NCBI RefSeq assembly: GCF_901000735.1
Contig: NC_081545.1
Span: 29,355,513 to 29,419,512, forward strand
From: Corylus avellana
Taxonomy: Eukaryota; Streptophyta; Magnoliopsida; Fagales; Betulaceae
Length of the DNA: 64,000 nt
Direction of reading: 5' to 3'
A program made the translations under genes and the position numbers. Shown in pieces: positions 31,118-64,000 of the stretch (the first letter of the stretch is position 1; each line of letters starts with the position of its first letter). The notes beneath the pieces are model-generated. The model was not told where the DNA came from, did not search any database, and worked only from the letters and a program-made list of their open reading frames with translations.

Positions 31118-31123
<6 letters not shown>

Positions 31124-32863: not shown

Positions 32864-33367
32864 CTACTCTGGGATGGTGACGAGCACTGGTCGCCAAGCT
32901 CTTCTGAGCAATCTATACCGAAACGACGCCGTTACGGGCCTGAAAGAACCGGCTCTTTCGGCTGCGCCTCGCCGCAACGCCGATATGCCACCACCGACGC
33001 TCCCGGTTGCCGGTAACAACCCGACCTCGTCTTCTTCCAATCTCTTATCCGAAACCCTATCATCAGGCGGCGGCGATGACACGAAGAGGTCCTTCAGCTT
33101 GTGCCGGACCCTGATCTCCCCGCTCTTCTCTTTCTTCTTAGCCTTGTCTGGAGGCGCGCGATTGGGATCGGAGTCCATGCCGCGGAGCTCCGAGGAGTCG
33201 TCCCGGCAGGCGAACCGGCCTCGACGGTCGGTGCGGTTGAGGAGCATGCGGAGAGTCTTGCGGCGGCGGAGGTGGATGACGGGGCTCGCCGACGGGCTCC
33301 TCGTCGGACTTGCGGCCACCACGGCGCACTGCGTCGCTAGAACCTTGAATTTCTGCAAGGTAGGCAT
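32864..33367 (-). CDS. Conserved plant protein of unknown function, 167 aa (copy 1)
   Basis: Single-exon frame opening MPTLQKFKVLATQCAVVAAS with a Ser/Pro stretch (PTRSPSASPVIHL) and a strongly basic RRRKTLRMLL motif. A Lys/Glu-rich middle (DKAKKKEKSGEIRVRHKLKD) and an Arg-rich tail follow. I recognise the N-terminal pattern as recurring in uncharacterised plant proteins but know no function. I chose this strand over the overlapping plus-strand 188-codon frame because of that N-terminus and because purine-rich GA repeats lie immediately upstream, as in plant 5' UTRs. There is no signal peptide or membrane segment. The translation is identical in copy 2. Confidence 0.65.
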   Translation of the reverse strand: MPTLQKFKVLATQCAVVAASPTRSPSASPVIHLRRRKTLRMLLNRTDRRGRFACRDDSSELRGMDSDPNRAPPDKAKKKEKSGEIRVRHKLKDLFVSSPPPDDRVSDKRLEEDEVGLLPATGSVGGGISALRRGAAERAGSFRPVTASFRYRLLRRAWRPVLVTIPE

Positions 33368-34127
33368 TCTTTTTATACACACAAAAAAACACTTTCCCTC
33401 TTTCTCTCTCTCTCTCTGAATTCCTTTGTTTGGCTGTGTGTGTGTGGAATTGGGCGTTGCTTGTTAGGGGGAGAAAGTGAGATCTGTGAGCATTATGATT
33501 GGGTTTGGATTTGGATTCGATTTCTTTGTGCTTTACTCCTTGGACTCAGAGTATTTAGCTGTGAATTGCATTTTCTAGAGCGAGAGAGAGAGAGAGAGAA
33601 GAAATGTGGCGGGGTTAAAAAAAACTAGAAAAAGCGATAAAATGGACGGGTGTTTTTGGGGGAATATGGGAAGAGGGTCCTGTGTCTCTTCGGGTCAATT
33701 ACGCTAACCGAAAGCTAAAATGGTTACACGTGGCAGATTCTAGCGATTTTCTCGAGCGATTTTTCAAAACTCATGTGTGAGGCTGGTTGAGTCAGTTTGA
33801 CCCATTTTGTTGGTCACAAATTAAGATTTATAAATGGAAAAATCGGTCTTTGTTTTAAGGTTTGGTTTAGTGAATTGATGTTTCATTTAATTAGGGTGTC
33901 AATACGTGCCGATTGTTTGGTTGTGGCGTGGAAATTTAAGGAGCCTATTGATGGCAGAATTAAAATAGTTAGAGCATCAATTGCTAATGGGACCAAAATA
34001 ATTCCGTAGGCTGACAATTGCTATAAATGACTTATTGTAGTACGTGGATGAATTAAAATTTGTGTGTAAGAGAGGCCAAGAGCTTCAAATATCTTAAGGG
34101 CTTAGGAGACTCTACATTTGATCAAGA

Positions 34128-34408
34128 CCCTCAGCAATTCTTAAGAATTGCCATCTAATTTTTTTTATAAATCTCAGCCATTGAATATATCTAAGGGCAT
34201 AAAATAAGACACCCACTATTTAGTGGATGGCATATTCCTGAGACTATTTGAATATCAAAGTTCAAATCTAAGCAAATACATATTCTCGAGGCTATTAAGC
34301 ATATTCTCGAGGCTATCTTAATAGTGGGTGTTTTATTCCAAGCCATTGAATACATTTAATGGCAGAGATTTGTAAAAAAATTGGCTGACAATTTTTAAGG
34401 TATTGTTG
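34128..34408. mobile_element. Foldback MITE (about 280 bp), copy 1
   Basis: The left arm (TTTATAAATCTCAGCCATTGAA, AAAATAAGACACCCACTATT) is reverse-complemented on the right (AATAGTGGGTGTTTTATTCC, GCCATTGAA-related). In copy 2 the same element is cut by the N gap at 47031. Confidence 0.65.
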
Positions 34409-35030: not shown

Positions 35031-35966
35031 GAACAAGAGCCTGTTTGGGATTGTGTTTGAGAAATAGAGTTTGTACGTTAACAAAAAGCTTTTGGGTAAA
35101 ACTTCATTTTTAAGCTTTTGTCAAAAGTGCGTTTTGATAATTTTTAGGCTTTTTGAACCCTTAAAAATGCTTTTAATTTTTTTACCAAATGAATACTTTT
35201 TCTTCAAACGGACTTTTTAAGTGTTAATTAGGTCCCTAAAACGCAATCATAAATAAGCCATAACTAAATCAACTAAAGTAGACTTTTAGTGTTGAGAGTT
35301 ATTGTGAATGCTCTTAAGAGTTATTTTAATAACTATATTTTAAATGGTTAGAGTTCACGAGAAGTGTCAGAAATTATCTTGTGTTGGATTCAAGGCATGT
35401 ATATTATGCGGAGGAAAATTAATCCATCATGTTAAACAACAGCTCAATACTCTCAATCCAGTTTTCATCTTTTGTTTGGTTGCTTGGATTTTGGGAAAAG
35501 CAGCCAATGATGTAGCTCCAATGGAGAAAACAAAGAAGGAAAAAAATAAAAAAATCTGCTGCTCTGTCATGAAAAATACAGAAGAAAAAAAAAAACAAGA
35601 GAGGAAAATTTAGCAGTTGTCATTATATTTTAGTCATCGTTTGATTCACAACATTTTCTCATTGATGAAAACAATCTAATTCAAAATCTTTACGATTGAA
35701 GTATGTAAGCCAAGCATCAGAGCATGTGCATGATGAATAGTGAATACATCCCAATACTAATAAGTTCACTTTCGACAGCTGTATTTACTATGTACATTGC
35801 CCAACAAGCATCCATGGATCTCTATCATCCATCCATCTTCTATCAAGACAAAATAGAACCAATCGACATCAAGATAATGAAATGTTAACCCACTTATTGA
35901 CTTCTTATGGGCGGCATACAATACCAAATTTACCATCTACTGTAGAGTTGGAGGAAATCTCAAGCG

Positions 35967-38673
35967 CTAGAAGGAATTGGGTGTAGTAGAGCTGCTAGCC
36001 CATTTCACAGATGAATCTGGTGAAAGTGGGGGAGGAATGTTCTTCAAAAGCCCGACATCATCTGCACTAATATCCACCACTTCTGCTTTCTGTACTCCAA
36101 TCTCTTCGTTCTTGATTCCTCTCAAAACTTCCACCACTTCATCCATGCTAGGCCTCATGTCCCTCTCCTGCTGCAAACACCGAAAAGCCAGTTCCGCCAC
36201 CGACGTCGTCATCCTCCTTACATCATAATCCTTTTCGAACCCAAGAGACGGATCGACCAACTCGTGCAATGCATGATTCTGAATCTTGTTGATTGCCATG
36301 TTGGCCAGGTTTATATCGTGCCGGTGTCTATTGGTGTCCACAGCCGGCAACGACGATATAAGCTCGACCAACACCACTCCAAAGCTATAAACGTCGCTTT
36401 TGTCAGTGAGCTGGTAGCACTGGTAATACTCTGGATCAACATACCCAGGTGTTCCTTGTGGAGCAGTTGACACATGCGTGACATCCGTTGGGAACAACCG
36501 TGACAAACCAAAATCAGACACTTTCACACGGAACTTATCATCCAGGAGAATGTTGGTGGTTTTAACATCGCGGTGGATAACATCCGATTCATGGAGGTAG
36601 GCCAGTGCCTCGGCTGACTCTATGGCTATGCTCAACCGAACTGGCCAAGTCATTAAAGCGGAACTAGACCGGTTTCCGTTGAGATGATCAGAGACAGTTC
36701 CGTTAGAAATGTATTCGTAAACAAGGAGAAGTTCTTGGCTACGTTTTGAGGTGCAGCCGTGGAGCAGCACAAGATTTGGGTGCCGTAAGCGAGTTAGGAT
36801 CTCGACTTCAGTCATGAACTGCTCAACGCGTTTGAAATTGTTTTCGTATAGGCGCTTCACTGCAACTACACGCCCATCACGCAGCTCGCCTGCAAATGAT
36901 TAAAATGATTTAAGAGGACAATCCTTCAGTGAAAAACTATAAAAAAGTATACATATAACGTAAGTTATAATCCTACCATAGTAAACAGTGCCAAAGCCTC
37001 CATCTCCAAGTTGTCTAGAAGGGTCAAAACGGTTAGTGGCTTCTTCCAGTTCTTCATAGCTGAAGATATGAGCTCCGAAGTACGTGCTTCCCCTTTCAAG
37101 ATCCAACTTCGGGGAGGGATAAGATGGGGTGCTTCGAGAGAAATTAGTTGAAGAAACTGGAAAGCCTTTGCTTGAAGGAGGTGTGGGCAGGTCTTTGCTT
37201 TTAGATTCATTGACAGGTTTTTTCCTCCGCTGTCTGATGGCAAAGACCAAACAACCTAGAAATACGGCAACAATGCCAGCAGCTCCTACGGCAACGCCTG
37301 AAGACACGAAACAAGAATTGGATAAATTTTCTTCTCTATAATACATTAATACCCAACTCAACGAAAAGATGCACAATGGTTGTAAGTTTGTAACGCCACA
37401 AAACATTACCTATGACAAGGCCTGCATTATTAGAACCTTTACTGTCTGCAATAGTCGAAAGATACAGAAGTGTCAGTCCAATGAGCACGAAAAGATATTT
37501 TATAGAGGAAGATCTTTAATCAGCTAGCATCACCATACACAAATAGTCAAGGTCTAATTTAAGACCAACATTTAATCCAATGTACTGCTTTTTGAAACCG
37601 ATATTTTCCCTCGATTTGAAGCCATTGAGGCCAGGGAACAAACAGGTGTCAATGGGGGAAGAAAGCAGGTGACAAATCGAGTGTAAAGACTTTTAAAGGC
37701 TATCGGACAAACCAAACGTGACAAAGACATTTTTGTTCCAAAAGACTTTTTACCATTTCTACCGTTTCCATCACAAAAGCAACGTCCTAATTAGCCTACC
37801 AAAATTACCGATTTTCAGAATTTCATTTCCTGTTCTCCACCATCATTCTCAAACAAAACCGCAATTTTTGTCGAGAAAAAAAGGTAGAATACCTGGCACC
37901 GAACACGTCCGATTGCCACAAAGGCAAATGGGTTTGCCCGACTTCGAATCAAACCCACATTGCGCACCAAAAACCAGACACTTGGCACACGTATCACCGT
38001 ACACATCGCTATAATTCACCTTGAAACCCTCCATCAAAACCTCCTCAAGCGTCGACCGATTAGTTGTGAGCTCCAACGCCGCCGTTTTGAGGATTTTCAG
38101 GCTGACACCGACGTTGCATTCAATAACTCCCAGAATCGGATCGGTAGGAACCGGACCGGTCAGGTAATAAGCGTCGGTCCGGTTCGTATTCCCAAGGAAG
38201 CTACAATAAAACAGATTAGGAGGCTTCGCGGGAAGACGGAGACCACTAGAGGAGCAACCGTAGAAGATGGTGAGGTCCTCATTGTCGGTAGCGTACGTGA
38301 ACCCAGAGGGCTCCAGAGTGGAATTGGTGTATTGCTGTGGGCACGTGGTGTTCCAGAGGTCGGAGCGGGCGAGGGTCATGGTTCTGGCGGCCTGGTCGAG
38401 CTGGAGGACTCGGTAACTCAGCGACGCGATGGTCAACTTGGGCGAGTCGTCGTCGCAGGAGAGTCGGAACTCGGGCGTACCGCAGTTCTCCGGGTGGGTC
38501 GTATCGGTGAATGGGTAGGATAGGTTCTTGAAAGGCCCACAGTCGAAGGCCTGGGCGCATTTGAAAGAGAGGGTGGAGGTGTCATCGGAAGGTAACGACG
38601 TCGTTGTGACGGCGACGGAGAAGAAGAGGAGGACGGAGACGAAGATCGCCGGAGGGAAGGCGATTGGGGGCAT
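35967..38673 (-). CDS. LRK10L-1.2: LRK10L1.2-type receptor-like kinase, ectodomain A + kinase (copy 1), 686 aa
   Basis: Exons 37893-38673, 37410-37445, 36977-37297 and 35967-36889 join in phase (2061 nt with stop). Exon 1 encodes a signal peptide (MPPIAFPPAIFVSVLLFF), a GUB_WAK_bind domain (CAQAFDCGPFKNLSYPF, CGTPEFRLSC) and a Cys-rich WAK_assoc end (CAKCLVFGAQCGFDSKSG). The 36-nt exon leads into a transmembrane helix (VAVGAAGIVAVFLGCLVFA) and basic stop-transfer RQRRKK. The kinase has glycine loop GDGGFGTVYYG, lysine in VVAVKRLY, HRDVKTTNILLDD, SDFGLSRLF and GTPGYVDPEYY, so it looks active (RD type). Family knowledge: such receptors sit at the plasma membrane and are linked to cell-wall sensing, rust resistance and ABA responses. 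The internal start MPP was preferred to MFK 37 codons upstream because the signal peptide follows it. Two more ectodomain exons lie upstream with compatible splice phase. Confidence 0.92.
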
Positions 38674-39131
38674 CAGAGAGTAGTGGAAGTGAGGGGTTAG
38701 AGGAGTGAGATGGCATGGATGAGGTAATAGGGTGGCTGGTCGCTGGAGTGGGTAAGGACTGCCTCCGGAGACGGCTTTGAACAAAGCTGCCTTTGGTTGA
38801 CTTGGACCCTACGTGTATGTGAACCAGCTTTTGAAATTGGAGGCCGTCTAGAATTCTGACTATTCTTGTGGATTTTTTATTTCCTCTTTCTTTCTTTTAT
38901 TATTATTTTTTTCTTTCTAAATCAACGTTTCTCAATTCTATAAAATAATAAGGAATATTGAACAAAAGAAATCTCAATTATTTGACCTGAAAATAATATT
39001 TAATATCTATTTTAAAAATATTTTTATAAAATATCATATCATAATTAAGGTGCATGAAAGCCTCTCCAATAGCCTTTGATTTGGACAAGCCGGAAGACCT
39101 AAATTGACCAATGAATATTAGACAAAAATGG

Positions 39132-39250
39132 TTGTTTTTTTTTTTTTTTAATTTTATTTTTTATATGTCCGCACAAGAGAGAAGAATTCGACCTAGTGAC
39201 ATCTGCTTCATTAAATATAATTCCAACCGATTAAGTTACCTCTTGAAAAT
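39132..39250 (-). mobile_element. tRNA-derived SINE, copy 7
   Basis: Poly-T / ATATGTCCGCACAAGAG end with GAATTCGACCTAGTGAC and CGATTAAGTTACCTCTTG boxes in minus orientation. Flanked by a perfect duplication ACAAAAATGG (39122-39131 and 39251-39260). It lies between ectodomain exons A and B. Confidence 0.85.
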
Positions 39251-40367
39251 ACAAAAATGGGTTTCTATGTGCACATCTTTTATATACTTTTTCTTTATAC
39301 TGTTGATTTTAGATTAACATTACGTGTTGATGAGATAGATGATAGACATACATATGTGGTATGCATAAAAAAATATGTGAATAATGTTCTTTAAAAAATG
39401 TGATTCTGTCTCTCTCTCTATTTAAAGAATATTTATTTTTCTAAGTACATATATACTAAACTAAATATTTCACTAACCGAATTTGGCCAATGTTATGTAA
39501 TCAATCAAGTCAAAAATTAACAAAAAAAAAATTGAAAAGGAAAATAAAAAATAGACTTAAATTAATTGTTTACAAATTTAGTATAATTATCTTGTTTTCT
39601 CACTATTCTAGTCTTCCCCTGTTTTTAACAAACCATAAATATATAATTGTCTTAAGCCGGTCCCATTGGGCCCTGCAGCCCACGCTGGTAACCACCCCTA
39701 CGATCATTGGTTGCCGGTGTGAATTCAATCTACCTACTACGAATTAACTTAAAAAGTATGCCGTGCATGATACACGCCATGCAAGAAATTCGATCGCCTT
39801 TTCTTTTTTCTTTTTTCTTTTTCTACTCCAATACCTCTTCTTGCCTGTAGGGCATTCAGCTTCTTTTTTTCTAACAAATGATAAGAGGAATCAACTCTGG
39901 CTTGGTTCCATAGCCTTTGATCCCACCTAACTCCTAACTAATTGGATCGAAATCCTTAATCGTCCATAAATTTCATATTGAAAATCCAAGAATCGGTCCA
40001 TCGTTGACCAGCCTAAATTTTTCTGATGCCAAGCCTCATGGACTTGTAAAGTTATGCCTCCTATTGATCCTCCCTCAAAACAATTACTAATCAACGAAAA
40101 ATTACCCCAATATCTGCATGTTTCTAATATAATATTTATCATGTTCATGTATAGGATGGATGACGCATATATGCCCGAAAGCAAGTTGGGAGTTTTTCCT
40201 AAATGATTTATCCTAAACCAGAGTCAAAGAAAAGTATGTTAGCTGCAGATCGAGGAGCCTTTTTTTCTCCATGCTTAAGCAAAAGGAGATACCGATCTGC
40301 ATGCTAGCAACCGAGCACCTAAACAAACATGCAAGAAATGAAGCAAGAAAAACAGCAAAAGACTTAC

Positions 40368-41157
40368 CTGTTGCTGTTAATGCACAAGTGGATGGGAAAG
40401 TTCCATTTGCACAATGGCAAGCGAATTCGCTCGTACTTGTGTTGTACCCACACTGTCCACCGGTCGCTTTACATCCATCACACAAACTGTTATTTGCGTT
40501 CCACCCCAATATGAAGCCGCCATCGATAGCTTCTTCCAGTGCACTTAAATTGCCGCTCCCAGGTTGAGATTGTAGAACTGGAACTTTAACGTTGTAGGCG
40601 CATGACCCAAATGAGCTACCAATCAAGTTCGCAATGGTATTGTTAGAATAGTAGTTGTTAGCATCGCTTCCGTTTATGGAGCAATCAAACTGAGTAGTAT
40701 CGGCCGGCGGAATTGTAAGAGGAGAAGTAGGAATACTAGGGCAATCATAGTAGAGCGTCAGGTTCACCGTAGCTGAAGCGTAACCAAAGACGGTGGAATT
40801 GATGGTCGTATTAACGATCGTAGCAGGACAAAGGGTGTTCCAATAATCCTCTCTAGCAACCTGGAGAGTCTGCGACACGTTATCGACATGAAGGACTCGG
40901 TAATTCATGAAGGTGATTTTGATGAGTGGGACACCATCGCTGCAGTTTAACTCAAAAGCAGGGTGGCCACAATAGCTTGGCCTAATATTGGATTCCCAAA
41001 AAGGATAACTGAGGTCCACAATGCCCGCACAATCAAATGTTTTGCTGCAGTTTAGGTATTGCTCAGCATCTGCGTATGAAGACGATGGGAAGTGGATCAA
41101 GCACAAGACTGTTATCACCAACGACAGAGCGATGGTTGGGAAGAGATTGGGATGCAT
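40368..41157 (-). CDS. LRK10L/WAK-type ectodomain exon B (copy 1), no kinase of its own
   Basis: The exon opens MHPNLFPTIALSLVITVLCL (signal peptide), followed by EQYLNCSKTFDCAGIVDLSY, PFWE, YCGHPAFELNC (GUB_WAK_bind), several Asn-X-Ser/Thr sites and a WAK_assoc end (CDGCKATGGQCGYNTSTSEF, ACHCANGTF). It ends at a strong donor ACAG/GTAAGTC in phase 1 (790 nt), the same phase as exon A. Reading through the donor adds about 50 unrelated residues before a stop at 40213. No transmembrane or kinase exon lies between here and gene A. It could splice into gene A's 36-nt exon about 2.9 kb downstream, make a secreted ectodomain by read-through, or be a decayed gene. The intact frame and splice site argue against simple decay. 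Confidence 0.8.
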
Positions 41158-42654
41158 CTCGATGGAAGAACGAGAGAGAAAGTGATTGCAAGTTATGAGA
41201 TTATAAAAGGGAGAAGGGGAAGATGATATGCTTTTCAATAAGTCTTATGAATTGCATCATAATGGAGCTGGTGGGCTTTGACGAAGTTGGGGTTTGGGGG
41301 GTGAAATTTGTCAAATAGATGCTTCTATTTGGAACTTTACCGGCGACGGTCAATTCAGAATTAGGTGACAAAGTCCAACAAAACGACAGTGCTTAATATT
41401 TCTAACGATTCCCTAACGCGGCATCTAGATGTTCTTGCCATGTTCTAGAACTCATATCTTAGGAAGGTCTGAAATCAGTTTTAAACTATTGCTCAGTCAA
41501 ACATATGGAGCCGCCCTGCAAAGAAAAAAAACTCACCTAAACTGCAATTTTTTTTTACTTCTAAGCCTCTAATACATCACAATCCACGTCATCTTAAACA
41601 TATATTAAATAAATAAATAAATAAAGATCAAACTCAACCAACAACAAGGTAAGACTCAAAAGATCACTCCCGTGTTACTCATGTTCCTTTTAAGTCCTCC
41701 TAAGTGGGTGGTTAATATTTCAGTGGAAATCTGGTTTGGCTCTACTTCTAAGAGGGAAAAATATGCCCAAAAATTTTGGAGTATGCTATAGGGGTAATCT
41801 TAATTAAGGGGAAGCAGAAAAAGGAAAAAACTATTGAGCTTAGGGAGATATTATATATAAGGAACTACGAAGGACTTCAAAAATAATCACCAATACATGA
41901 AAATTAATTACAAGGATGCTAGTTGAAGTATGAACAGAAGCCAAAAGTTCTCTCAACTGTCTGGTTCATGGCTCAATCGAATCTCAATTCAGCTGAAACT
42001 CGTACGTGGGCTTTTTTAATTGCCTGCATTTTTCTATACCTGTGAAGTCCAACATCACTGCTGTATATGCCCATGTGCCCCCATGATCCCCCTTTTTTTT
42101 TGGGTTTGGGAGTCAAATATGCTAATTCTGTCACAAATTTAAGGAGTCAATCTTGAGACAAATTAATTAAAGGCCTACAATATATATATATTGGAAGCAT
42201 CTTGGTAACCTCAAAATTTGCATTTTACCATCTAACCCCCCAAACTGAGAAGAAATTAACCAAAGACAAGACATGATGACAATCAGACACCAAATGTAAG
42301 ATCATGGATCAATCCACAACCAGAAAGCCCTTCAGACAAAATTTTAATCTTGAAAGAAGGACGACGTTGTCTTGCCTCTTCAGACACGAGAGAGTCGTTA
42401 ACATGTAGTATCTGTTTTCAATGGGCAAGTCGTCTAATCGAGTACTGGAGGTGGAAGATTCAAATATATACTCGAATCAGAAAGAAGGGCATGGCCTAAA
42501 ATATGCTAGTGGACCTAATTTATCGAATACATCTCACTTATCGTTACCCGCAGAGCTCCTATAGTCCTATAGAGTGAAAGATAAAATAAAATAAATATCG
42601 GGTCTCGGTCAATAGTCAAAAAATCTCATGAACTCAGCTCAGGAATGCCATCAC
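41158..42654. other. Intergenic between ectodomain exons B and C
   Basis: No exon is seen. Short AT runs and an (ATAA)n tract near 41607-41625 occur; this tract is 4 bp shorter in copy 2. No kinase-like frame is present on either strand. Confidence 0.6.
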
Positions 42655-42758
42655 CTACTGTAATGCTATTGCATAAAACCGGCTAGAAAACAACTTGAAA
42701 TTACAACTACTGCTCGGCGCTGGCTGGGGTAAAAGTAGAAAATAAGGGACATACATAC

Positions 42759-43512
42759 CTGATTTACTAGAAGGCACTTGGGTGTCTCCGGCAGCACATA
42801 TTTTTAACCCGTTTGATGATTGATTTGGGCAGTAGCAAGTTGTTTGATTTGTATTCTGGTCGTATCCACAAACCCCCTTAGACACGGTGCAGGCAATACA
42901 AACTGGATCCTCCTTCCACTTCACATCGAATCCTCCTTTGATGATGTCTTCAATTCTTGACCAATTACCTATATCTTGCTTAAGAGTTGCAAGAACAGGA
43001 ACAACCACACTTTTTGCACAAACCCCAGGGACGGTAGGGTCTTGTATGTAAACGCCTTTATTAGCGGTCCCATCAACGGAGCAAAAGGATATTGGTGGAT
43101 AAAAATTGGGAAAAGAAGGGCAACCATAGAGTAACGTAATGCTAAAGTGGCTAGGGCCATATTCAAAAAGCTCTGTATCCAGGGTGGTATTCACCCACAC
43201 TGGTGAACAAATTCCATCCAAGAAGTCGTCCCTCACAATTTTGAGGGTTTTGGAGCCAGGATCGGCACTCAAAACGCGGTATTCCAGGTTCATAATTTCG
43301 ATGCTAGTGATATTTTTCGTACAAATGAGCTTTGAATCCGGATTGCCGCAGCCATCGGGCCGGCCATCACCCCAGAATGGATAACCCAAGCCAGTGATGT
43401 CCCCGCAGTCAAACCGACTGCTACACCTTGTATACCAATCATAGGAGCATAAACACACCGGAACCTCGACGAAAACCAACAACATAATGAAGAAGGAAAG
43501 CCAGGAATCCAT
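42759..43512 (-). CDS. LRK10L/WAK-type ectodomain exon C (copy 1), no kinase of its own
   Basis: The exon opens MDSWLSFFIMLLVFVEVPVC (signal peptide), then CSSRFDCGDITGLGYPFWGD, CGNPDSKLIC (GUB_WAK_bind), and a WAK_assoc end (CIACTVSKGVCGYDQNTNQT, CYCPNQ). It ends SKSG at donor ATCAG/GTATGT in phase 1 (754 nt). Read-through adds a short unrelated tail ending at 42655. A TATAATTA-like box lies about 85 bp upstream of the ATG near 43596, hinting at its own promoter. The nearest acceptor I recognise in frame is the 36-nt exon of gene A, 5.3 kb away. Its product is either a secreted ectodomain or, by splicing, an alternative receptor. Confidence 0.8.
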
Positions 43513-43808
43513 TTCTGGGAAAGAGATCAAAGTGATGGATGAAATGAAGAATAGGTGAGGTATTTGAGATTGTCTCAAGGAAACAACGGCAAATATAATT
43601 ATGTGACATCACTCGATGGGAAAACAATATTAAGGCCAGTGATTAAAGAAGAAGACTTCAGACTTTGGAATGTATTGACTTGAAAGCCAAATGGTGAATC
43701 GCATTTCTGTGTATGGAGGACGATTTTCTTAAATGAGATAAGCTATTGTTTGACTAAACACACGAATCTTTTCACTTCAAGTATGGACAGACTGCCTTTC
43801 CATTTCTC

Positions 43809-43908
43809 NNNNNNNNNNNNNNNNNNNNNNNNNNNNNNNNNNNNNNNNNNNNNNNNNNNNNNNNNNNNNNNNNNNNNNNNNNNNNNNNNNNNNNNNNNNN
43901 NNNNNNNN
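43809..43908. other. Assembly gap (100 N) at the junction of the two block copies
   Basis: Exactly 100 N separate the last base of copy 1 from the first base of copy 2. Both sides are block edges, which is the geometry expected when two overlapping contigs are not merged. Confidence 0.99.
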
Positions 43909-45616
43909 AAAATAAAAAATAAAAAGAACTTAGAATGAGTCAATAAGCTTGTCCAATAACAATGACGGGAATTTCATTTTCTATCATCACATTCTCAAAA
44001 TTTAAAATCTTTTATTAATGTTGGGTATTCAAGTTTAAAAAGTTTACAATGTTACTTATGTCAATATTGGAGTTTGAGGATAAATCCGACAGTAAATAAG
44101 TAAAATGTTCTTTATACATCAGTAAAATTTTAAAAATTACAAAATTACTATAATTAAATAATTAAAAAAAAATGTCCATCAGCTGGAGCATATGCTAATT
44201 TTTTTTATTTTTTTTTAAATAATATTTTGAAAAATTTCACGTCTTTTGTGTTGAATCCTAAAGAAGAAGTGAGATTGCAAAATTTTTAAATTTTGATAGT
44301 GATTGTAAAAGTGATGAAACATCATATGGTAAGTAGAGTTTCCCCTAATGAACGGCGTGTACTCATCTAGACTCGTGCGAACAACTTTGTATATGTGCTA
44401 GATCTTAGTTAAATGATCTTGGAGCATTCTTAGCAAATTTTCTCTTTAATTTAAATAAAAAATAATATATTTTTATTTTAGCTATTTATTTTTTCAAAAC
44501 ACATATCCCCCTTTTCTATTTTACCTATCAATTTTTACTATTATATTTAAATATTATTTCTCAAGGACTTCTTTATTCTTTTGTTATTGAGATGATAAAA
44601 AATGTTATATATATATATATATATTCTTTTACAGTTGGTGACTAAACATTTAACAAAGAGATTCTAAAAAGATGAATGCAACCCAATCCAATATGACACA
44701 ATGGCACGTACGCACATGTGACATGGTTCCACCACATCCACAGCAGCGAGTTTTGCGGTCCAACCCTTATCCTCCTCATGGCCTGCCCAAGATGGAGCGC
44801 GAAAGAGTTTGACTCCTCCATCCATCCATCCACTTGAAGACATTTTCATACTGTAAAACCAAATTATACTTGGCATGCCTGCCCAAATCTGAAACCCATG
44901 ATCAAAATATTGTAGCATTGTGATGACTGATGATTAAAACCCCCGAAAATGCATGCGAGTGGAAAGGACCAAATGCACATATTCATAGCATAAAATTAAA
45001 TTTACATTTGGGTCCGACATGTATGAGTAATGAATGAGAGGGGTTGATACAAAAAGTAGTACACCCCACTTGGATTCGTGAACCGTTAATTGCTAACGGT
45101 ACTCTAAAGGGCTAAAAACAAAAAACATGTATACTTATTGCGGAAACATCTCGGAGGAACATCAACACATGGAAGCTGTAATAGAGAGAGACACAGCTTT
45201 TATTAAAAATTACATATCATTGTCTTAGCCTTGTCCTCACGGGCCATGCCACTCTCTCTCACCCCCCAACAACACCTAAAAGAAAAATGCTCTTTTCAGG
45301 GCCATCATCATTTACAACTTTTTTTTAATTAATTAAAAAAAAAAAAGAAAAGAAAATTCCACTGCTAAAATGCGTCCGAATAAGTTGAACCCCGCGTTCT
45401 CTGGCCCCACTTTTCTCGCAGAGGCCGTTAACGTCTTCTTCAATAATCAGACGCGCAAGTTAGCACCGCCTCGGCGCACTTTAGCAACCCAAAATTTACA
45501 TTATCTCTCAGAAAATACCACAGAGAAGTTTTAATAGTATTTTCGAAAAATAAATAAAAATAAAAATAAATAAAAATTTACGAAGATTCCGAATTATCCG
45601 TACTTTTGTTTTGCTT

Positions 45617-46120
45617 CTACTCTGGGATGGTGACGAGCACTGGTCGCCAAGCTCTTCTGAGCAATCTATACCGAAACGACGCCGTTACGGGCCTGAAAGA
45701 ACCGGCTCTTTCGGCTGCGCCTCGCCGCAACGCCGATATGCCACCACCGACGCTCCCGGTTGCCGGTAACAACCCGACCTCGTCTTCTTCCAATCTCTTA
45801 TCCGAAACCCTATCATCAGGCGGCGGCGATGACACGAAGAGGTCCTTCAGCTTGTGCCGGACCCTGATCTCCCCGCTCTTCTCTTTCTTCTTAGCCTTGT
45901 CTGGAGGCGCGCGATTGGGATCGGAGTCCATGCCGCGGAGCTCCGAGGAGTCGTCCCGGCAGGCGAACCGGCCTCGACGGTCGGTGCGGTTGAGGAGCAT
46001 GCGGAGAGTCTTGCGGCGGCGGAGGTGGATGACGGGGCTCGCCGACGGGCTCCTCGTCGGACTTGCGGCCACCACGGCGCACTGCGTCGCTAGAACCTTG
46101 AATTTCTGCAAGGTAGGCAT
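45617..46120 (-). CDS. Conserved plant protein of unknown function, 167 aa (copy 2)
   Basis: Second copy of the frame at 32864-33367, with identical translation including MPTLQKFKVLATQC and RRRKTLRMLL. The flanking GA-rich leader and the 3' region are also conserved. The same caveat on strand choice applies; if the block is a haplotype artefact this is the other allele, not a second gene. Confidence 0.65.
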   Translation of the reverse strand: MPTLQKFKVLATQCAVVAASPTRSPSASPVIHLRRRKTLRMLLNRTDRRGRFACRDDSSELRGMDSDPNRAPPDKAKKKEKSGEIRVRHKLKDLFVSSPPPDDRVSDKRLEEDEVGLLPATGSVGGGISALRRGAAERAGSFRPVTASFRYRLLRRAWRPVLVTIPE

Positions 46121-47030
46121 TCTTTTTATACACACAAAAAAACACTTTCCCTCTTTCTCTCTCTCTCTCTGAATTCCTTTGTTTGGCTGTGTGTGTGTGG
46201 AATTGGGCGTTGCTTGTTAGGGGGAGAAAGTGAGATCTGTGAGCATTATGATTGGGTTTGGATTTGGATTCGATTTCTTTGTGCTTTACTCCTTGGACTC
46301 AGAGTATTTAGCTGTGAATTGCATTTTCTAGAGCGAGAGAGAGAGAGAGAGAAGAAATGTGGCGGGGTTAAAAAAAACTAGAAAAAGCGATAAAATGGAC
46401 GGGTGTTTTTGGGGGAATATGGGAAGAGGGTCCTGTGTCTCTTCGGGTCAATTACGCTAACCGAAAGCTAAAATGGTTACACGTGGCAGATTCTAGCGAT
46501 TTTCTCGAGCGATTTTTCAAAACTCATGTGTGAGGCTGGTTGAGTCAGTTTGACCCATTTTGTTGGTCACAAATTAAGATTTATAAATGGAAAAATCGGT
46601 CTTTGTTTTAAGGTTTGGTTTAGTGAATTGATGTTTCATTTAATTAGGGTGTCAATACGTGCCGATTGTTTGGTTGTGGCGTGGAAATTTAAGGAGCCTA
46701 TTGATGGCAGAATTAAAATAGTTAGAGCATCAATTGCTAATGGGACCAAAATAATTCCGTAGGCTGACAATTGCTATAAATGACTTATTGTAGTACGTGG
46801 ATGAATTAAAATTTGTGTGTAAGAGAGGCCAAGAGCTTCAAATATCTTAAGGGCTTAGGAGACTCTACATTTGATCAAGACCCTCAGCAATTCTTAAGAA
46901 TTGCCATCTAATTTTTTTTATAAATCTCAGCCATTGAATATATCTAAGGGCATAAAATAAGACACCCACTATTTAGTGGATGGCATATTCCTGAGACTAT
47001 TTGAATATCAAAGTTCAAATCTAAGCAAAT

Positions 47031-47130
47031 NNNNNNNNNNNNNNNNNNNNNNNNNNNNNNNNNNNNNNNNNNNNNNNNNNNNNNNNNNNNNNNNNNNNNN
47101 NNNNNNNNNNNNNNNNNNNNNNNNNNNNNN
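47031..47130. other. Assembly gap (100 N) inside block copy 2
   Basis: Replaces sequence equivalent to 34278-35104 of copy 1, which holds most of a foldback MITE and a SINE with a long poly-A tail. Confidence 0.99.
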
Positions 47131-47993: not shown

Positions 47994-50700
47994 CTAGAAG
48001 GAATTGGGTGTAGTAGAGCTGCTAGCCCATTTCACAGATGAATCTGGTGAAAGTGGGGGAGGAATGTTCTTCAAAAGCCCGACATCATCTGCACTAATAT
48101 CCACCACTTCTGCTTTCTGTACTCCAATCTCTTCGTTCTTGATTCCTCTCAAAACTTCCACCACTTCATCCATGCTAGGCCTCATGTCCCTCTCCTGCTG
48201 CAAACACCGAAAAGCCAGTTCCGCCACCGACGTCGTCATCCTCCTTACATCATAATCCTTTTCGAACCCAAGAGACGGATCGACCAACTCGTGCAATGCA
48301 TGATTCTGAATCTTGTTGATTGCCATGTTGGCCAGGTTTATATCGTGCCGGTGTCTATTGGTGTCCACAGCCGGCAACGACGATATAAGCTCGACCAACA
48401 CCACTCCAAAGCTATAAACGTCGCTTTTGTCAGTGAGCTGGTAGCACTGGTAATACTCTGGATCAACATACCCAGGTGTTCCTTGTGGAGCAGTTGACAC
48501 ATGCGTGACATCCGTTGGGAACAACCGTGACAAACCAAAATCAGACACTTTCACACGGAACTTATCATCCAGGAGAATGTTGGTGGTTTTGACATCACGG
48601 TGGATAACATCCGATTCATGGAGGTAGGCCAGTGCCTCGGCTGACTCTATGGCTATGCTCAACCGAACCGGCCAAGTCATTAAAGCAGAACTCGACCGGT
48701 TTCCATTGAGATGATCAGAGACAGTTCCATTAGAAATGTATTCGTAAACAAGGAGAAGTTCTTGGCTACGTTTTGAGGTGCAGCCGTGGAGCAGCACAAG
48801 ATTTGGGTGCCGTAAGCGAGTTAGGATCTCGACTTCAGTCATGAACTGCTCAACGCGTTTGAAATTGTTTTCGTATAGGCGCTTCACAGCAACTACACGC
48901 CCATCATGCAGCTCGCCTGCAAATGATTAAAATGATTTAAGAGGACAATCCTTCAGTGAAAAACTATAAAAAAGTATACATATAACGTAAGTTATAATCC
49001 TACCATAGTAAACAGTGCCAAAGCCTCCATCTCCAAGTTGTCTAGAAGGGTCAAAACGGTTAGTGGCTTCTTCCAGTTCTTCATAGCTGAAGATATGAGC
49101 GCCGAAGTACGTGCTTCCCCTTTCAAGATCCAACTTCGGGGAGGGATAAGATGGGGTGCTTCGAGAGAAATTAGTTGAAGAAACTGGAAAGCCTTTGCTT
49201 GAAGGAGGTGTGGGCAGGTCTTTGCTTTTAGATTCATTGACAGGTTTTTTCCTCCGCTGTCTGATGGCAAAGACCAAACAACCTAGAAATACGGCAACAA
49301 TGCCAGCAGCTCCTACGGCAACGCCTGAAGACACGAAACAAGAGTTGGATAAATTTTCTTCTCTATAATACATTAATACCCAACTCAACGAAAAGATGCA
49401 CAATGGTTGTAAGTTTGTAACGCCACAAAACATTACCTATGACAATGCCTGCATTATTAGAACCTTTACTGCCTGCAATAGTCGAAAGATACAGAAGTGT
49501 CAGTCCAACGAGCACGAAAAGATATTTTATAGAGGAACATCTTTAATCAGCTAGCATCACCATACACAAATAGTCAAGGTCTAATTTAAGACCAACATTT
49601 AATCCAATTTACTGCTTTTTGAAACCGATATTTTCCCTCGATTAGAAGCCATTGAGGCCAGGGAACAAACAGGTGTCAATGGGGGAAGAAAGCAGGAGAC
49701 AAATCGAGTGTAAAGACTTTTAAAGGCTATCGGACAAACCAAACGTGACAAAGATATTTTTCTTCCAAAAGACTTTTTACCATTTCTACCGTTTCCATCA
49801 CAAAAGCAACGTCCTAATTAGCCTACCAAAATTACCGATTTTCAGAATTTCATTTCCTGTTCTCCACCATCATTCTCAAACAAAACCGCAATTTTTGTCG
49901 AGAAAAAAAGGTCGAATACCTGGCACCGAACACGTCCGATTGCCACAAAGGCAAATGGGTTTGCCCGACTTCGAATCAAACCCACATTGCGCACCAAAAA
50001 CCAGACACTTGGCACACGTATCACCGTACACATCGCTATAATTCACCTTGAAACCCTCCATCAAAACCTCCTCAAGCGTCGACCGATTAGTTGTGAGCTC
50101 CAACGCCGCCGTTTTGAGGATTTTCAGGCTGACACCGACGTTGCATTCAATAACTCCCAGAATCGGATCGGTAGGAACCGGACCGGTCAGGTAATAAGCG
50201 TCGGTCCGGTTCGTATTCCCAAGGAAGCTACAATAAAACAGATTAGGAGGCTTCGCGGGAAGACGGAGACCACTAGAGGAGCAACCGTAGAAGATGGTGA
50301 GGTCCTCATTGTCGGTAGCGTACGTGAACCCAGAGGGCTCCAGAGTGGAATTGGTGTATTGCTGTGGGCACGTGGTGTTCCAGAGGTCGGAGCGGGCGAG
50401 GGTCATGGTTCTGGCGGCCTGGTCGAGCTGGAGGACTCGGTAACTCAGCGACGCGATGGTCAACTTGGGCGAGTCGTCGTCGCAGGAGAGTCGGAACTCG
50501 GGCGTACCGCAGTTCTCCGGGTGGGTCGTATCGGTGAATGGGTAGGATAGGTTCTTGAAAGGCCCACAGTCGAAGGCCTGGGCGCATTTGAAAGAGAGGG
50601 TGGAGGTGTCATCGGAAGGTAACGACGTCGTTGTGACGGCGACGGAGAAGAAGAGGAGGACGGAGACGAAGATCGCCGGAGGGAAGGCGATTGGGGGCAT
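47994..50700 (-). CDS. LRK10L-1.2: LRK10L1.2-type receptor-like kinase, ectodomain A + kinase (copy 2), 686 aa
   Basis: Exons 49920-50700, 49437-49472, 49004-49324 and 47994-48916 repeat the structure of the gene at 35967-38673 exactly, with the same splice sites. Signal peptide, GUB_WAK_bind, WAK_assoc, transmembrane helix and kinase motifs (GDGGFGTVYYG, HRDVKTTNILLDD, SDFGLSRLF) are intact. The protein differs from copy 1 at two residues, both in the juxtamembrane 36-nt exon: GSKGSNNAGIVIG here against DSKGSNNAGLVIG. Several third-position changes also occur. It is either a recent tandem paralogue or the second allele placed in series by the assembler; the N gap at 43809 favours the latter. 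Confidence 0.9.
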
Positions 50701-51158: not shown

Positions 51159-51277
51159 TTGTTTTTTTTTTTTTTTAATTTTATTTTTTATATGTCCGCA
51201 CAAGAGAGAAGAATTCGACCTAGTGACATCTGCTTCATTAAATATAATTCCAACCGATTAAGTTACCTCTTGAAAAT
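51159..51277 (-). mobile_element. tRNA-derived SINE, copy 7 as repeated in block copy 2
   Basis: Identical placement and target duplication to the SINE at 39132-39250; it was carried by the block and is not a separate insertion. Confidence 0.85.
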
Positions 51278-52394: not shown

Positions 52395-53184
52395 CTGTTG
52401 CTGTTAATGCACAAGTGGATGGGAAAGTTCCATTTGCACAATGGCAAGCGAATTCGCTCGTACTTGTGTTGTACCCACACTGTCCACCGGTCGCTTTACA
52501 TCCATCACACAAACTGTTATTTGCGTTCCACCCCAATATGAAGCCGCCATCGATAGCTTCTTCCAGTGCACTTAAATTGCCGCTCCCAGGTTGAGATTGT
52601 AGAACTGGAACTTTAACGTTGTAGGCGCATGACCCAAATGAGCTACCAATCAAGTTCGCAATGGTATTGTTAGAATAGTAGTTGTTAGCATCGCTTCCGT
52701 TTATGGAGCAATCAAACTGAGTAGTATCGGCCGGCGGAATTGTAAGAGGAGAAGTAGGAATACTAGGGCAATCATAGTAGAGCGTCAGGTTCACCGTAGC
52801 TGAAGCGTAACCAAAGACGGTGGAATTGATGGTCGTATTAACGATCGTAGCAGGACAAAGGGTGTTCCAATAATCCTCTCTAGCAACCTGGAGAGTCTGC
52901 GACACGTTATCGACATGAAGGACTCGGTAATTCATGAAGGTGATTTTGATGAGTGGCACACCATCGCTGCAGTTTAACTCAAAAGCAGGGTGGCCACAAT
53001 AGCTTGGCCTAATATTGGATTCCCAAAAAGGATAACTGAGGTCCACAATGCCCGCACAATCAAATGTTTTGCTGCAGTTTAGGTATTGCTCAGCATCTGC
53101 GTATGAAGACGATGGGAAGTGGATCAAGCACAAGACTGTTATCACCAACGACAGAGCGATGGTTGGGAAGAGATTGGGATGCAT
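52395..53184 (-). CDS. LRK10L/WAK-type ectodomain exon B (copy 2)
   Basis: Repeat of 40368-41157 with an unchanged protein (signal peptide MHPNLFPTIALSL, YCGHPAFELNC, CDGCKATGGQCGYN) and the same phase-1 donor GTAAGTC. One silent change (GGGACACC to GGCACACC on the plus strand) is visible near 52957. Its nearest compatible acceptor is the 36-nt exon at 49437-49472 in the same block. Function options are as for copy 1. Confidence 0.8.
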
Positions 53185-54781: not shown

Positions 54782-55535
54782 CTGATTTACTAGAAGGCAC
54801 TTGGGTGTCTCCGGCAGCACATATTTTTAACCCGTTTGATGATTGATTTGGGCAGTAGCAAGTTGTTTGATTTGTATTCTGGTCGTATCCACAAACCCCC
54901 TTAGACACGGTGCAGGCAATACAAACTGGATCCTCCTTCCACTTCACATCGAATCCTCCTTTGATGATGTCTTCAATTCTTGACCAATTACCTATATCTT
55001 GCTTAAGAGTTGCAAGAACAGGAACAACCACACTTTTTGCACAAACCCCAGGGACGGTAGGGTCTTGTATGTAAACGCCTTTATTAGCGGTCCCATCAAC
55101 GGAGCAAAAGGATATTGGTGGATAAAAATTGGGAAAAGAAGGGCAACCATAGAGTAACGTAATGCTAAAGTGGCTAGGGCCATATTCAAAAAGCTCTGTA
55201 TCCAGGGTGGTATTCACCCACACTGGTGAACAAATTCCATCCAAGAAGTCGTCCCTCACAATTTTGAGGGTTTTGGAGCCAGGATCGGCACTCAAAACGC
55301 GGTATTCCAGGTTCATAATTTCGATGCTAGTGATATTTTTCGTACAAATGAGCTTTGAATCCGGATTGCCGCAGCCATCGGGCCGGCCATCACCCCAGAA
55401 TGGATAACCCAAGCCAGTGATGTCCCCGCAGTCAAACCGACTGCTACACCTTGTATACCAATCATAGGAGCATAAACACACCGGAACCTCGACGAAAACC
55501 AACAACATAATGAAGAAGGAAAGCCAGGAATCCAT
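54782..55535 (-). CDS. LRK10L/WAK-type ectodomain exon C (copy 2)
   Basis: Repeat of 42759-43512 with an unchanged protein (MDSWLSFFIMLLVF, CGNPDSKLIC, VCGYDQNTNQT) and the same phase-1 donor ATCAG/GTATGT. It is the ectodomain exon nearest to the diverged exon D upstream, with which it shares the opening MDSWL and the terminal SKSG, so C and D are probably sister duplicates. Confidence 0.8.
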
Positions 55536-58322: not shown

Positions 58323-59004
58323 CTGATTTTGATGGTGAGGAAATATTGCATGTTGGACACGCGAACGCTGCAGCATCCACCTTCCATTCCACATCGAATC
58401 CTTCTCTAATGGCTTCCTCCAATTCCGACAAAATGAATGAATCTAGACGGAGACGAACTGGGACAACCACGCTTCCATTACATTCCTTAGGCCCATGAGC
58501 TCCCAGCTCCACGTGCACTTCCCCACTTGTGGGGCAAGTGAAGTGTCCAGGGTGTGGGAAAGGTAACCAAGAAGAGGGACAACCGTAGGCTAATGTAATA
58601 TTCTGGTAACCGGGGTGAAAATCAAACAGGTTGGGGTCGAGAGTGGTATTCAATAATTCCGGCGAACAAATTCCAGTCGAGAAATCCTCTCGTGAAATTT
58701 TGAGTATTTGGGTTTTGAGATCGACCTCTAGCACGCGGTATGTCACGTTCATAATCTCTATGGTAGTAACACTTCCCTCGCAGTGAAGCTTCAATCCAGG
58801 AGACCCACAATTACTGGGTCGGGTATCTTCCCAGAAAGGAAACCCGACGTTATTGATCCCTCCGCAGTTGAACAGTTTGCTACAGTTTGGTAGGTCCACA
58901 TCATCATCATCGCATAGAGATCCTGGAATCCCGACGAAAGTTACAAAGAATAAGAAATAGAAAGAAATAAGAAAAGGAGACGGCGAGAGAAGCCAGGAAT
59001 CCAT
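58323..59004 (-). CDS. LRK10L/WAK-type ectodomain exon D, shortened C-terminal Cys module
   Basis: Opens MDSWLLSPSPFLISFYFLFF (signal peptide), then DLPNCSKLFNCGGINNVGFP, FWED, NCGSPGLKLHC (GUB_WAK_bind), TIEIMNVTYRVLEVD, and EEAIREGFDVEWKVDAA. It ends ACPTCNISSPSKSG at donor ATCAG/GTACGT in phase 1 (682 nt), after which an in-frame stop follows within three codons. Compared with exon C, the WAK_assoc segment containing G-CGY and C-C-N is missing, so about 20 residues and three or four Cys are gone while the terminal SKSG and donor persist; this looks like an internal deletion. A TATACAAA-like sequence lies about 45 bp upstream of the ATG. No kinase lies between D and exon C of copy 2. Confidence 0.78.
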
Positions 59005-61387: not shown

Positions 61388-62788
61388 TCAAGAAGCAAGG
61401 TCATTGACGATGCCATTTAGCTTTCTTTCCAACACTTCTGAACATATCTGCCCCATCATGTGGTAGAAAGACATCATATCAGACAACTGTTCTACCGACA
61501 TTTTCCCCATCACACTCCTTGCCAGCTTTTCTTTCTCCCCATTCAACTTCAATCTCTCTATGTAGGAGCCTGCATTCCTCACTGTTGCACCCATCTGCTT
61601 CAACCTATTCTCTTGTTGCAAACTCATTGCTGTGTTTGACTGCAACTCGGATCGAAACAAATTAAAAGCAATTAAACCCCCAAAAAGAAGTTTGAAAAAA
61701 AAAAGAACAGAAAATATCAAACACTTCGATCTTTTTCTCTGTAAATTAATACCTCAAGAAATTCTGCTCCAGCTTCGAGTTCAGATTCTTTCCAGGGAGC
61801 CATCTCACGGCCAGTTGTGTATATATTCCTTGCAATTGAGAAACTACGAATGATACTTTTCCTTTTCTTCTCCAATATTTCTTGATCGAGCTTTTGGTGC
61901 TTTGGCACTGATGTTGTGATGTTAACCTTTTTCTGGTAAGCAATAACCGCCTTCACAAATTCCTGCACAATTTCCATGGTTATTCCAACAACAAAAAGAA
62001 AAAAGAAAAGAAAGAACAATCTAAAGATTGTTCATATAAATGAAATCACAATGAAACCTGGTAAGCAGATGGGCATCCTGGATAATCAAATTGGTCAGAA
62101 TCCGACCACCTCATTCTCTCAGGATGAAACTGGAGTCCCATAATAAATTTACCCTCTTCAGGATTATAAGAATCCGGATCATAAAACCCTTCAATTAGAC
62201 CATCATGCGCAAATGCCATTGGTACAAAGCGCTGGGCCAATCTCTTAATCCCTTGGTGATGATAACTATTAACTGAAATCTCCATTTTCCCTTCCTCCAA
62301 AGAATCCTTGAACCAATGGTTCAAGGGGGTGTTCTCCACCACCTTAACCACAAGCCTATGCCCATCATAATTATCATAATCAATGTGCTTCACTCTCTGC
62401 CCTTCGGGGCAATTCTTTGATACTTCTTTCTCTATGTCTTGGAAAAGGGTACCCCCACATGCAACATTTAGTACCTGGGAACCCCTGCAGATTCCCAAGT
62501 AGGGGATGTTCCTTTCTTGGCAAAGCTTTGCAAGCCTCAACTCGATCGTATCCTTTTCTTTATCAATAGCAGTATCGCTGGAATGAAGCCTCCTGATTTC
62601 TTCCAGCTCTTCTGGGGGAAGAGCAGAGGATTCCTCCTCATAGAGAGACGGATCAATGTCCTCTCCATCACAGAGAAGAACGCCATGGATGGGCTCAAAG
62701 CTATCTAATAACATATGAACCCCATTAACCCGGGGAACAATCACCGGTACTGCACCATAGCCTACTATAAGATCAAGATGGTATTCAC
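61388..62788 (-). CDS. GAT1_2.1: Class I glutamine amidotransferase-like protein (GAT1_2.1 type), first exon missing
   Basis: Exons 62058-62788, 61753-61962 and 61388-61639 join in phase by GT-AG introns. The first visible exon starts after an acceptor CAG/GTGAATACC and encodes [20 protein letters not shown]; family members have about 30 residues before it, supplied by another exon that is not found. The class I amidotransferase (peptidase C26) core is intact: nucleophile Cys in [12 protein letters not shown], His-Glu in [12 protein letters not shown], with HHQGIKRLA between. The C-terminal exons are helical ([32 protein letters not shown]). The Arabidopsis relative GAT1_2.1 is linked to nitrogen responses and shoot branching; the reaction here is inferred. 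Only about 105 bp upstream of this exon the sequence becomes receptor-kinase copy 3 on the same strand, so exon 1 has been displaced or lost. Confidence 0.88.
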
Positions 62789-62935
62789 CTGAGATTTACA
62801 TGCATACACACAGCTTTTAGTAATTACCCAATCAAACAATAAGAAGTAGAAAGAATTAATATGGCTGTGAAAGTTCAATTATTGGAAGAGATCTAAATTT
62901 ACCATCTACTGTAGAGTTGGGGGAAATCTCAAGCG

Positions 62936-64000
62936 CTAGAAGGAATTGGGTGTAGTAGAGCTGCTAGCCCGTTTCACAGATGAATCTGGTGAAAGCGGGG
63001 GAGGAATGTTCTTCAAAAGCCCGACATCATCTGCACTAATATCCACCACTTCTGCTTTCTGTACTCCAATCTCTTCGTTCTTGATTCCTCTCAAAACTTC
63101 CACCACTTCATCCATGCTAGGCCTCATTTCCCTCTCCCGCTGCAAACACCGAAAAGCCAGTTCTGCCACTGACGTCGTCATCATCCTTACATCGTAATCC
63201 TTTTCGAACCCAAGAGACGGATCGACCAACTCGTGCAATGCGTGATTCTGAATCTTGTTGATTGCCATGTTGGCCAGGTTTATATCGTGCCGGTGTCTAT
63301 TGGTGTCCACAGCCGGCAACGACGATATAAGCTCGACCAACACCACTCCAAAGCTATAAACGTCGCTTTTGTCAGTGAGCTGGTAGCACTGGTAATACTC
63401 TGGATCAACATACCCAGGTGTTCCTTGTGGAGCAGTTGACACATGCGTGACATCCGTTGGGAACAACCGTGACAAACCAAAATCAGACACTTTCACACGG
63501 AACTTATCATCCAGGAGAATATTGGTGGTTTTGACATCGCGATGGATAACATCCGATTCATGGAGGTAGGCCAGTGCCTCGGCTGACTCTATGGCTATGC
63601 TCAACCGAACTGGCCAAGTCATTAAAGCGGAACTCGACCGGTTTCCGTTGAGATGATCAGAGACAGTTCCATTAGAAATGTATTCGTAAACAAGGAGAAG
63701 TTCTTGGCTACGTTTTGAGGTGCAGCCGTGGAGCAGCACAAGATTTGGGTGCCGTAAGCGAGTTAGGATCTCGACTTCAGTCATGAACTGCTCAACGCGT
63801 TTGAAATTGTTTTCGTATAGGCGCTTCACTGCAACTACACGCCCATCATGCAGCTCGCCTGCAAATGATTAAAATGATTAAGAGGACAATCCTTCTGGAA
63901 AAAACTACAAAAAAGTATACATATAACGTAAGTTATAATCCTACCATAGTAAACAGTGCCAAAGCCTCCATCTCCAAGTTGTCTAGAAGGGTCAAAACGG
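62936..64000 (-). CDS. LRK10L-1.2: LRK10L1.2-type receptor kinase, third copy, partial (5' part outside window)
   Basis: The kinase exon is 62936-63858, and the preceding transmembrane/glycine-loop exon runs from 63945 beyond the window end. Splice sites match copies 1 and 2. Kinase motifs HRDVKTTNILLDD, SDFGLSRLF and GTPGYVDPEYY are intact. Relative to copies 1 and 2 the exon protein differs at four residues (DVRMMTT for DVRRMTT, QREREM for QQERDM, KRASS for KWASS), more than copies 1 and 2 differ from each other. Homology with the other copies stops at about 62894, about 42 bp past the stop codon, so the 3' UTR and all downstream DNA are different. It is therefore a genuine paralogue, not another allele. 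Confidence 0.92.

Follow-up and report, generated by a model that had tools for sequence, protein, structure and literature searches.

Counts of plant receptor kinases usually assume a single ectodomain for each kinase, and a locus of the hazel Corylus avellana raises the question whether a single kinase gene could carry several alternative sensors instead. The window analyzed here (64,000 nucleotides of contig NC_081545.1, C5:29355513-29419512; C5 coordinates are used for sites beyond it) holds, on the minus strand, a row of homologous ectodomain exons ahead of a shared kinase part. Our analysis makes it very probable that they form one LRK10L-type receptor-kinase gene in which four alternative first exons, in the 5'-3' order D, C, B and A, share one kinase.

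A preliminary description of this DNA had placed three such exons upstream of a single 36-nt exon, a single transmembrane (TM) exon and a single kinase exon, and we recovered this order (5'-3': C, B, A, 36-nt exon, TM exon, kinase exon) together with the given coordinates, the lengths of 754, 790 and 781 nt for C, B and A, and their common phase 1 at a GT donor (Table 1). Its statement that no other kinase lies among the first exons held as well, as tblastn with three kinase queries (E≤1e-4) found no kinase or TM module within 37891-43512, and the GUB_WAK_bind domain and Cys-rich end ascribed to A, B and C exceed the curated cut-offs of Pfam GUB_WAK_bind and WAK_assoc. The three exons are thus as described, but their count was too low: exon D had been overlooked, and neither the near-identical copy 2 nor the paralogous cassette 3 figured in that description. 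In all six proteins scanned with Pfam, GUB_WAK_bind reached 47.6-56.8 bits (cut-off 29.4) and Pkinase, following a TM segment read from the sequence, 163.5-164.6 bits, and WAK_assoc exceeded its 27-bit cut-off in A, B, C and B3, the counterpart of B in cassette 3. The first exons begin with leaders that are hydrophobic as judged by eye. A VKRLYENN-like motif, which we label kin2, separates the kinase of this locus from LRK10L-1-like kinases; LRK10L-1 and LRK10L-2 are the subfamily names that we presume to apply to the two kinase classes.

Table 1. Features of the hazel locus, in window positions (copy 1 and copy 2 are the two near-identical versions of the kinase part with its first exons).
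Feature	Position	Strand	Remarks
Kinase exon (exon 4), shared, copy 1 (K1)	35967..36889	-	spliced DNA equals P0001 and P0014 exactly; Pkinase; boundary is a GT-AG choice, four adjacent choices yield an identical protein
TM/juxtamembrane exon (exon 3), shared, copy 1	36977..37297	-	acceptor CTTCAG, donor GTAGGA
36-nt exon (exon 2), shared acceptor for first exons, copy 1	37410..37445	-	preceded by ..TATTGCAG
First exon A, alternative (GUB_WAK_bind + WAK_assoc)	37893..38673	-	781 nt, 3n+1, donor GTATTC
First exon B, alternative (GUB_WAK_bind + WAK_assoc)	40368..41157	-	790 nt, 3n+1, donor GTAAGT; in P0001, isoform X1
First exon C, alternative (GUB_WAK_bind + WAK_assoc)	42759..43512	-	754 nt, 3n+1, donor GTATGT; in P0014, isoform X3
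100-N assembly gap	43809..43908		99.6% repeat ends flush at gap
Small contig flanked by gaps, probable alternative haplotype piece	43909..47030		96.3% over whole length to 31118-34277
100-N assembly gap	47031..47130		99.6% repeat begins flush at gap
Kinase exon K2 (copy 2, probably the other allele)	47994..48916	-	99.0% to K1
TM exon, copy 2	49004..49324	-	spliced protein match
36-nt exon, copy 2	49437..49472	-	spliced protein match
First exon A, copy 2 (A2)	49920..50700	-	100% to A; in P0016, isoform X2
First exon B, copy 2 (B2)	52395..53184	-	99.9% to B; reads open into K2
First exon C, copy 2 (C2)	54782..55535	-	100% to C; in P0015, isoform X3
First exon D, fourth alternative (GUB_WAK_bind; WAK_assoc under cut-off)	58323..59004	-	682 nt, 3n+1, donor GTACGT; in P0019
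Amidotransferase-like open reading frame, neighbouring gene, part of duplicated unit	62046..62795	-	block 59375-62896 has a 91% copy at 71072-74584
Kinase exon, true paralogous cassette (K3)	62936..63858	-	98.4% to K1; P0002 (B3-K3) and P0020 (D3-K3) exact

Each of the four first exons ends in phase 1 at its donor, and its reading frame stays open through the shared exons as far as the kinase stop. We did not accept the phase match as proof of shared use, since the first exons are paralogues and paralogous exons inherit intron phase, so that it is no independent evidence. The locus has the layout of multiple variable first exons, i.e., tandem homologous first exons on the same strand and in the same phase ahead of common downstream exons.

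The joins themselves are carried by isoform proteins in public databases. A search that began with the first 300 residues of a built B-plus-kinase protein led to P0001 ("isoform X1"), identical over the 300 residues scored (100%) and, over all 689 residues, to the spliced window DNA. The Corylus proteins considered here are those among the database matches of hazel queries, each compared with spliced DNA, and seven of seven proved to be exact products of splicing this DNA: B1-K1 (P0001, isoform X1) and C1-K1 (P0014, X3) from copy 1, A2-K2 (P0016, X2), C2-K2 (P0015, X3) and D-K2 (P0019, X4) from copy 2, and B3-K3 (P0002, X1) and D3-K3 (P0020, X2) from cassette 3. As protein clusters, P0001 represents three sequences and P0016 six. 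The products of one copy have exact common C-terminal stretches of 426-429 aa, which start at the junction or slightly before it. Both junctions that the preliminary description had proposed to look for are present in gene models rather than reads, 42759 to 37445 (C to the 36-nt exon) in P0014 and 40368 to 37445 (B to the 36-nt exon) in P0001, and at this level of public models its suggestion that alternative first exons give one kinase several ectodomains is supported by B-K, C-K, A-K and D-K forms. Five of the Corylus isoforms have the base name "1.4" and both D forms "1.3"; in our reading, the X numbers count isoforms within one gene. Exon A is identical to A2, which is present in P0016, and the A1-K1 join reads open; neither an A1-K1 nor a B2-K2 protein was among the Corylus proteins matched by hazel queries.

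Two further uses of the first exons were weighed against these models. B, C and D could mainly yield secreted ectodomain decoys by read-through past the donor, and stops indeed follow closely (within 11 nt for D at 58312, about 100 nt for C at 42655 and about 155 nt for B at 40213). Kinase-joined forms are present in the databases, however, and the strong donor GTAAGT of B would be useless for decoys, so that we regard this option as very unlikely; the protein search covered lengths above those of free ectodomains. At its upper end the search admitted up to 1.75 times the query length, and none of the seven Corylus proteins has first exons spliced in series to give a two-ectodomain receptor. 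Such serial splicing, to which Malus P0027 (823 aa, "isoform X2"; by eye a C-type ectodomain, a partial second one and a kinase) might point, is in our view just as improbable in hazel.

Whether D belongs with the other three depends on the second copy at 47-56 kb. The D model P0019 splices to K2 over 8850 nt, jumping C2, B2 and A2. Positions 35105-43808 and 47131-55831 are 99.6% identical, the first stretch ending and the second beginning exactly at 100-N gaps, and K1 differs from K2 by eight synonymous and one nonsynonymous difference. Because all homology ends are flush with gaps, copy 2 is most likely the second allele, retained when the assembly was made, and we ranked a biological tandem duplication of the locus below unmerged alleles. 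Such a recent duplicate, which would leave two near-identical multi-sensor genes beside cassette 3, would suit the tandem order of the three pieces, the nine differences within the kinase exon and the public models, which keep the copies separate (two C-K proteins, P0014 and P0015). It is nonetheless unlikely, as every homology end is a contig end (43808, 43909, 47030, 47131), another gap of the region has a 99.88% flush overlap on both sides, and hazel is described as highly heterozygous, with collapsed earlier pseudo-chromosome assemblies (PMC11152071). The overlap in question, 4958 bp long, lies at C5:29245337-29250294 and 29250395-29255352, either side of a 100-N gap. The assembly seems to retain unmerged contig ends: a 279-kb part of C5 contains eight N runs, of which three are in long flush overlaps (the two window gaps and 29250295-29250394), one at C5 29204982 has overlaps of just 72-333 bp that lie close to contig ends or at them, and the remaining four have no overlap of such kind. 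Since copy 2 is taken as an allele, D would fall in the same gene as A, B and C of copy 1, and the locus is probably one gene in the order D-C-B-A-kinase.

Copies 1 and 2 differ by 26 substitutions in the compared 6 kb. Of these, 21 are concentrated in a 1.3-kb stretch around the shared exons (36564-37886 vs 48591-49913), and the next 3 kb upstream, including exon A, has none. Gene conversion of K2 by K3 gave no signal, as cassette 3 sides with copy 2 at 8 of the 26 sites and with copy 1 at 14, and matches neither copy at 4, where it has a gap in two cases.

Cassette 3 is a true paralogue that aligns from 62895 onward at 93% and comprises an amidotransferase-like gene, D3, B3, A3 and the 36-nt, TM and kinase exons; it lacks a C exon. 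Its TM exon lies at 63945-64268, and the first exons A3, B3 and D3 lie across or beyond the window end. A3 is out of frame, and when it is spliced from the usual donor, the resulting frame runs into a stop once 273 codons have been read; from B3 and D3 the frame stays open across the intact kinase K3.

This cassette bears on a simpler account, in which A alone works as first exon, with B, C and D as leftovers of duplication whose phase was kept through descent and with isoform models that owe their joins to the annotation pipeline. Paralogous exons would have a common phase regardless, no purifying selection is seen in D/D3 or between C and its copy C' elsewhere on C5, and decay is visible in the frameshift of A3 and in the donor of C' (GT to GC). 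Against this stand B, C and D, fully open and with donors; nine of ten joins read, all except A3, run open to the kinase stop, the same exon types sit on one kinase in Carya, as do two of these types in Malus, and the broken exon of cassette 3 is A3, its B3 and D3 being intact. Moreover, an Arabidopsis relative is reported to have peptides for both of its isoforms (PMC13136898). We hold the account with A as the sole working first exon to be decidedly unlikely and retain the gene with four alternative first exons.

The same exon types were found in other plants. In Carya illinoinensis (pecan), models P0006, P0023 and P0035 carry, like hazel, B-, C- and A-type ectodomains on one identical 411-aa C-terminal TM-kinase part, the A and C forms both being named I3843_03G059900; unlike in hazel, no D type was found on that kinase in this comparison of proteins. 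Malus models have C- and A-type ectodomains on a common 389-aa end that begins past the TM part. Three hazel queries reached 72 database proteins, and in a tree of 41 of them, chosen by us, the ectodomain types group across genera: the A-type spans rosids and asterids, the B-type is found mainly in Fagales, plus a long-branched Fragaria row, and the C/D-type in Fagales, Malus, Ulmus, Quillaja and Vitis, with orders and families assigned as we presume them to be. The arrangement thus likely predates hazel, as far as can be judged from these sequences.

Comparison of the cassettes revealed that the kinase is constrained and the sensors change. Nonsynonymous differences amount to 103 in 1633 sites of A+B+D vs 5 in 699 of the kinase (p=2e-11; for A, only the portion ahead of the frameshift was used), whereas synonymous differences (39/527 vs 10/219) do not differ significantly (p=0.19), and the ectodomains are about nine-fold more diverged than the kinase at nonsynonymous sites. 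The ratio of nonsynonymous to synonymous divergence (dN/dS) between K1 and cassette 3 is 0.15 for the kinase and 1.74, not significant, for the TM exon. Positive selection on the ectodomains was considered and rejected, the value for D/D3 being 1.49 (p=0.26).

Several points weigh against the four-exon gene. The hazel joins are known here from gene models, as opposed to reads, cap sites or peptides, and such models are indirect; to our knowledge, NCBI builds alternative isoforms only on transcript evidence. The proteins of Carya and Malus are of mixed origin, drawn from several assemblies and annotation sources. Exon D has a short Cys-rich end, its WAK_assoc score of 20.6 bits, like that of D3 (21.1 bits), falling under the 27-bit cut-off, and the frameshift in A3 demonstrates that exons of the array do decay. 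Evidence for selection on the ectodomains is weak as well, with dN/dS of 0.56 for B/B3 (p=0.047), 0.67 for A/A3 (p=0.27, part before the frameshift), 0.45 for B and its distant copy B' (p=0.028) and 0.63 for B3/B' (p=0.08); by the same measure no purifying selection was detected on C (C/C' 1.05, p=0.90) or D (D/D3 1.49).

The copies B' (90% DNA identity to B) and C' (81% to C) lie on the plus strand of C5, about 166 and 179 kb away. The main homology block of B' spans the exon with about 230 nt of upstream DNA and 424 nt past the donor, that of C' the exon with about 140 nt upstream and 45 nt past the donor, and neither includes the kinase exon; other matches of the two regions are a few pieces of 79-198 bp elsewhere. 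Exon and upstream DNA were copied without the kinase, as exon-plus-promoter modules would be, and the upstream blocks resemble each other between copies. These sequence comparisons support the view that ectodomain exons moved by exon duplication. The B' exon (C5:29230263-29231045, +) is in frame with an LRK10L-1-like kinase from 29234371, giving 641 open aa; despite this open join, no such protein was among the Corylus matches of the B-plus-kinase query. C' has GC in place of GT at its donor.

A broader idea would be a pool of ectodomain exons with a standard phase-1 junction that are spliced to, or readily re-wired in evolution to, two kinase classes, the LRK10L-2-like kinase of this locus (class 2) and the LRK10L-1-like kinases nearby (class 1), so that sensors and kinases would combine on both sides. 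In Corylus, the in-frame B' exon ahead of a class-1 kinase and the class-1 kinase modules downstream of the array would fit it. Carya C-type ectodomains one residue apart are followed by a class 2 kinase in one assembly (P0025) and a class 1 kinase in another (P0026), and a class-1 kinase end of 393 identical aa follows both C-type (P0026) and B-type (P0021) ectodomains. One exon spliced to both kinase classes was seen in no Corylus protein among the hazel-query matches, and we consider such a pool improbable. Alnus P0024, with a C-type ectodomain and a class-1 kinase, was set aside as probably kin of separate plus-strand genes; its kinase is closest to plus-strand Corylus kinases (86.7% and 84.6%), vs 58-80% for the intact minus-strand ones.

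Six LRK10L-1-like kinase modules stand in a row on the minus strand (window 9993-10915 and C5:29319706-29354481), two of them with broken frames, and between these modules and exon A there was no ectodomain match at E≤1e-4. The option that these ectodomain-less kinases downstream serve as extra partners was rejected: decay of ordinary genes is simpler, because ectodomain-start-like pieces, recognized by eye, lie upstream of two modules (C5 29325256-29325549 and 29358005-29358292).

Some observations concern the surroundings. The open reading frame at 62046..62795 we take to be a class I glutamine-amidotransferase-like gene. A Trapa model matched by the exon A query (P0057) has the amidotransferase domains PF07722 and PF00117 fused to the receptor, a hint from sequence that the receptor-amidotransferase linkage could be old. 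Left of the window, C5:29350661-29352507 holds pieces that by eye resemble a papain-type cysteine protease gene between two kinase modules, and an open reading frame at window 14624-15031 looks, again by eye, like the endonuclease of a LINE (long interspersed nuclear element)-type retroelement. On C1, C2, C3 and C4, a hand count among 150 listed GUB_WAK_bind matches gave at least 26 head-to-head pairs on opposite strands, 0.6-1.3 kb apart, which are divergent receptor gene pairs that perhaps share promoters.

In the mechanism that we propose for the hazel gene, each first exon would have its own promoter. Transcription would begin at one of them, and its donor would join the acceptor of the 36-nt exon, skipping any first exons between. 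Each first exon would supply an apparent leader, recognized by eye, and a GUB_WAK_bind ectodomain, with A-C also contributing a full Cys-rich WAK_assoc end, so that several sensors, possibly with distinct ligands, could feed one kinase. That these sensors bind cell-wall pectin fragments is a guess from the domain name. If the mechanism is true, a single signalling output would receive its sensor through the choice of promoter; at such loci knock-outs, resistance mapping and the counting of genes would mislead, as one kinase mutation removes four receptors. The array could serve as a useful test case, given that in the models of both hazel and pecan one kinase goes with the exon types A, B and C, and that cassette 3 offers a natural broken A. 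Moreover, assemblies of heterozygous plants may double such loci.

In this context, we take AT1G18390 to be AtLRK10L1. The kind of system is already known, and what the hazel locus adds to it is an array of four first exons and a paralogue with a broken A; we found no description of an LRK10L array with three or four ectodomains in the literature as far as accessible, in which subscription journals are little covered. In Arabidopsis, alternative first exons of LRK10L3 give distinct extracellular domains with identical TM and kinase parts, and peptides exist for both isoforms (PMC13136898); AtLRK10L1 has two distinct promoters and two isoforms (PMC10573068), in line with the alternative promoters cited in the preliminary description, and two alternative start sites are given for AT1G18390 (PMC10337256). 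Going by these published descriptions, the hazel gene is alike in kind, with four first exons compared with two isoforms in LRK10L3 and two starts in the single gene AtLRK10L1/AT1G18390. Beyond plants, the vertebrate variable-first-exon clusters UGT1, GCNT2 and protocadherins likewise have tandem homologous first exons ahead of shared exons (PMC1885805). The protocadherin comparison drawn earlier holds for layout and is limited to it, the hazel array being a plant receptor kinase whose descent is unrelated to that of these clusters.

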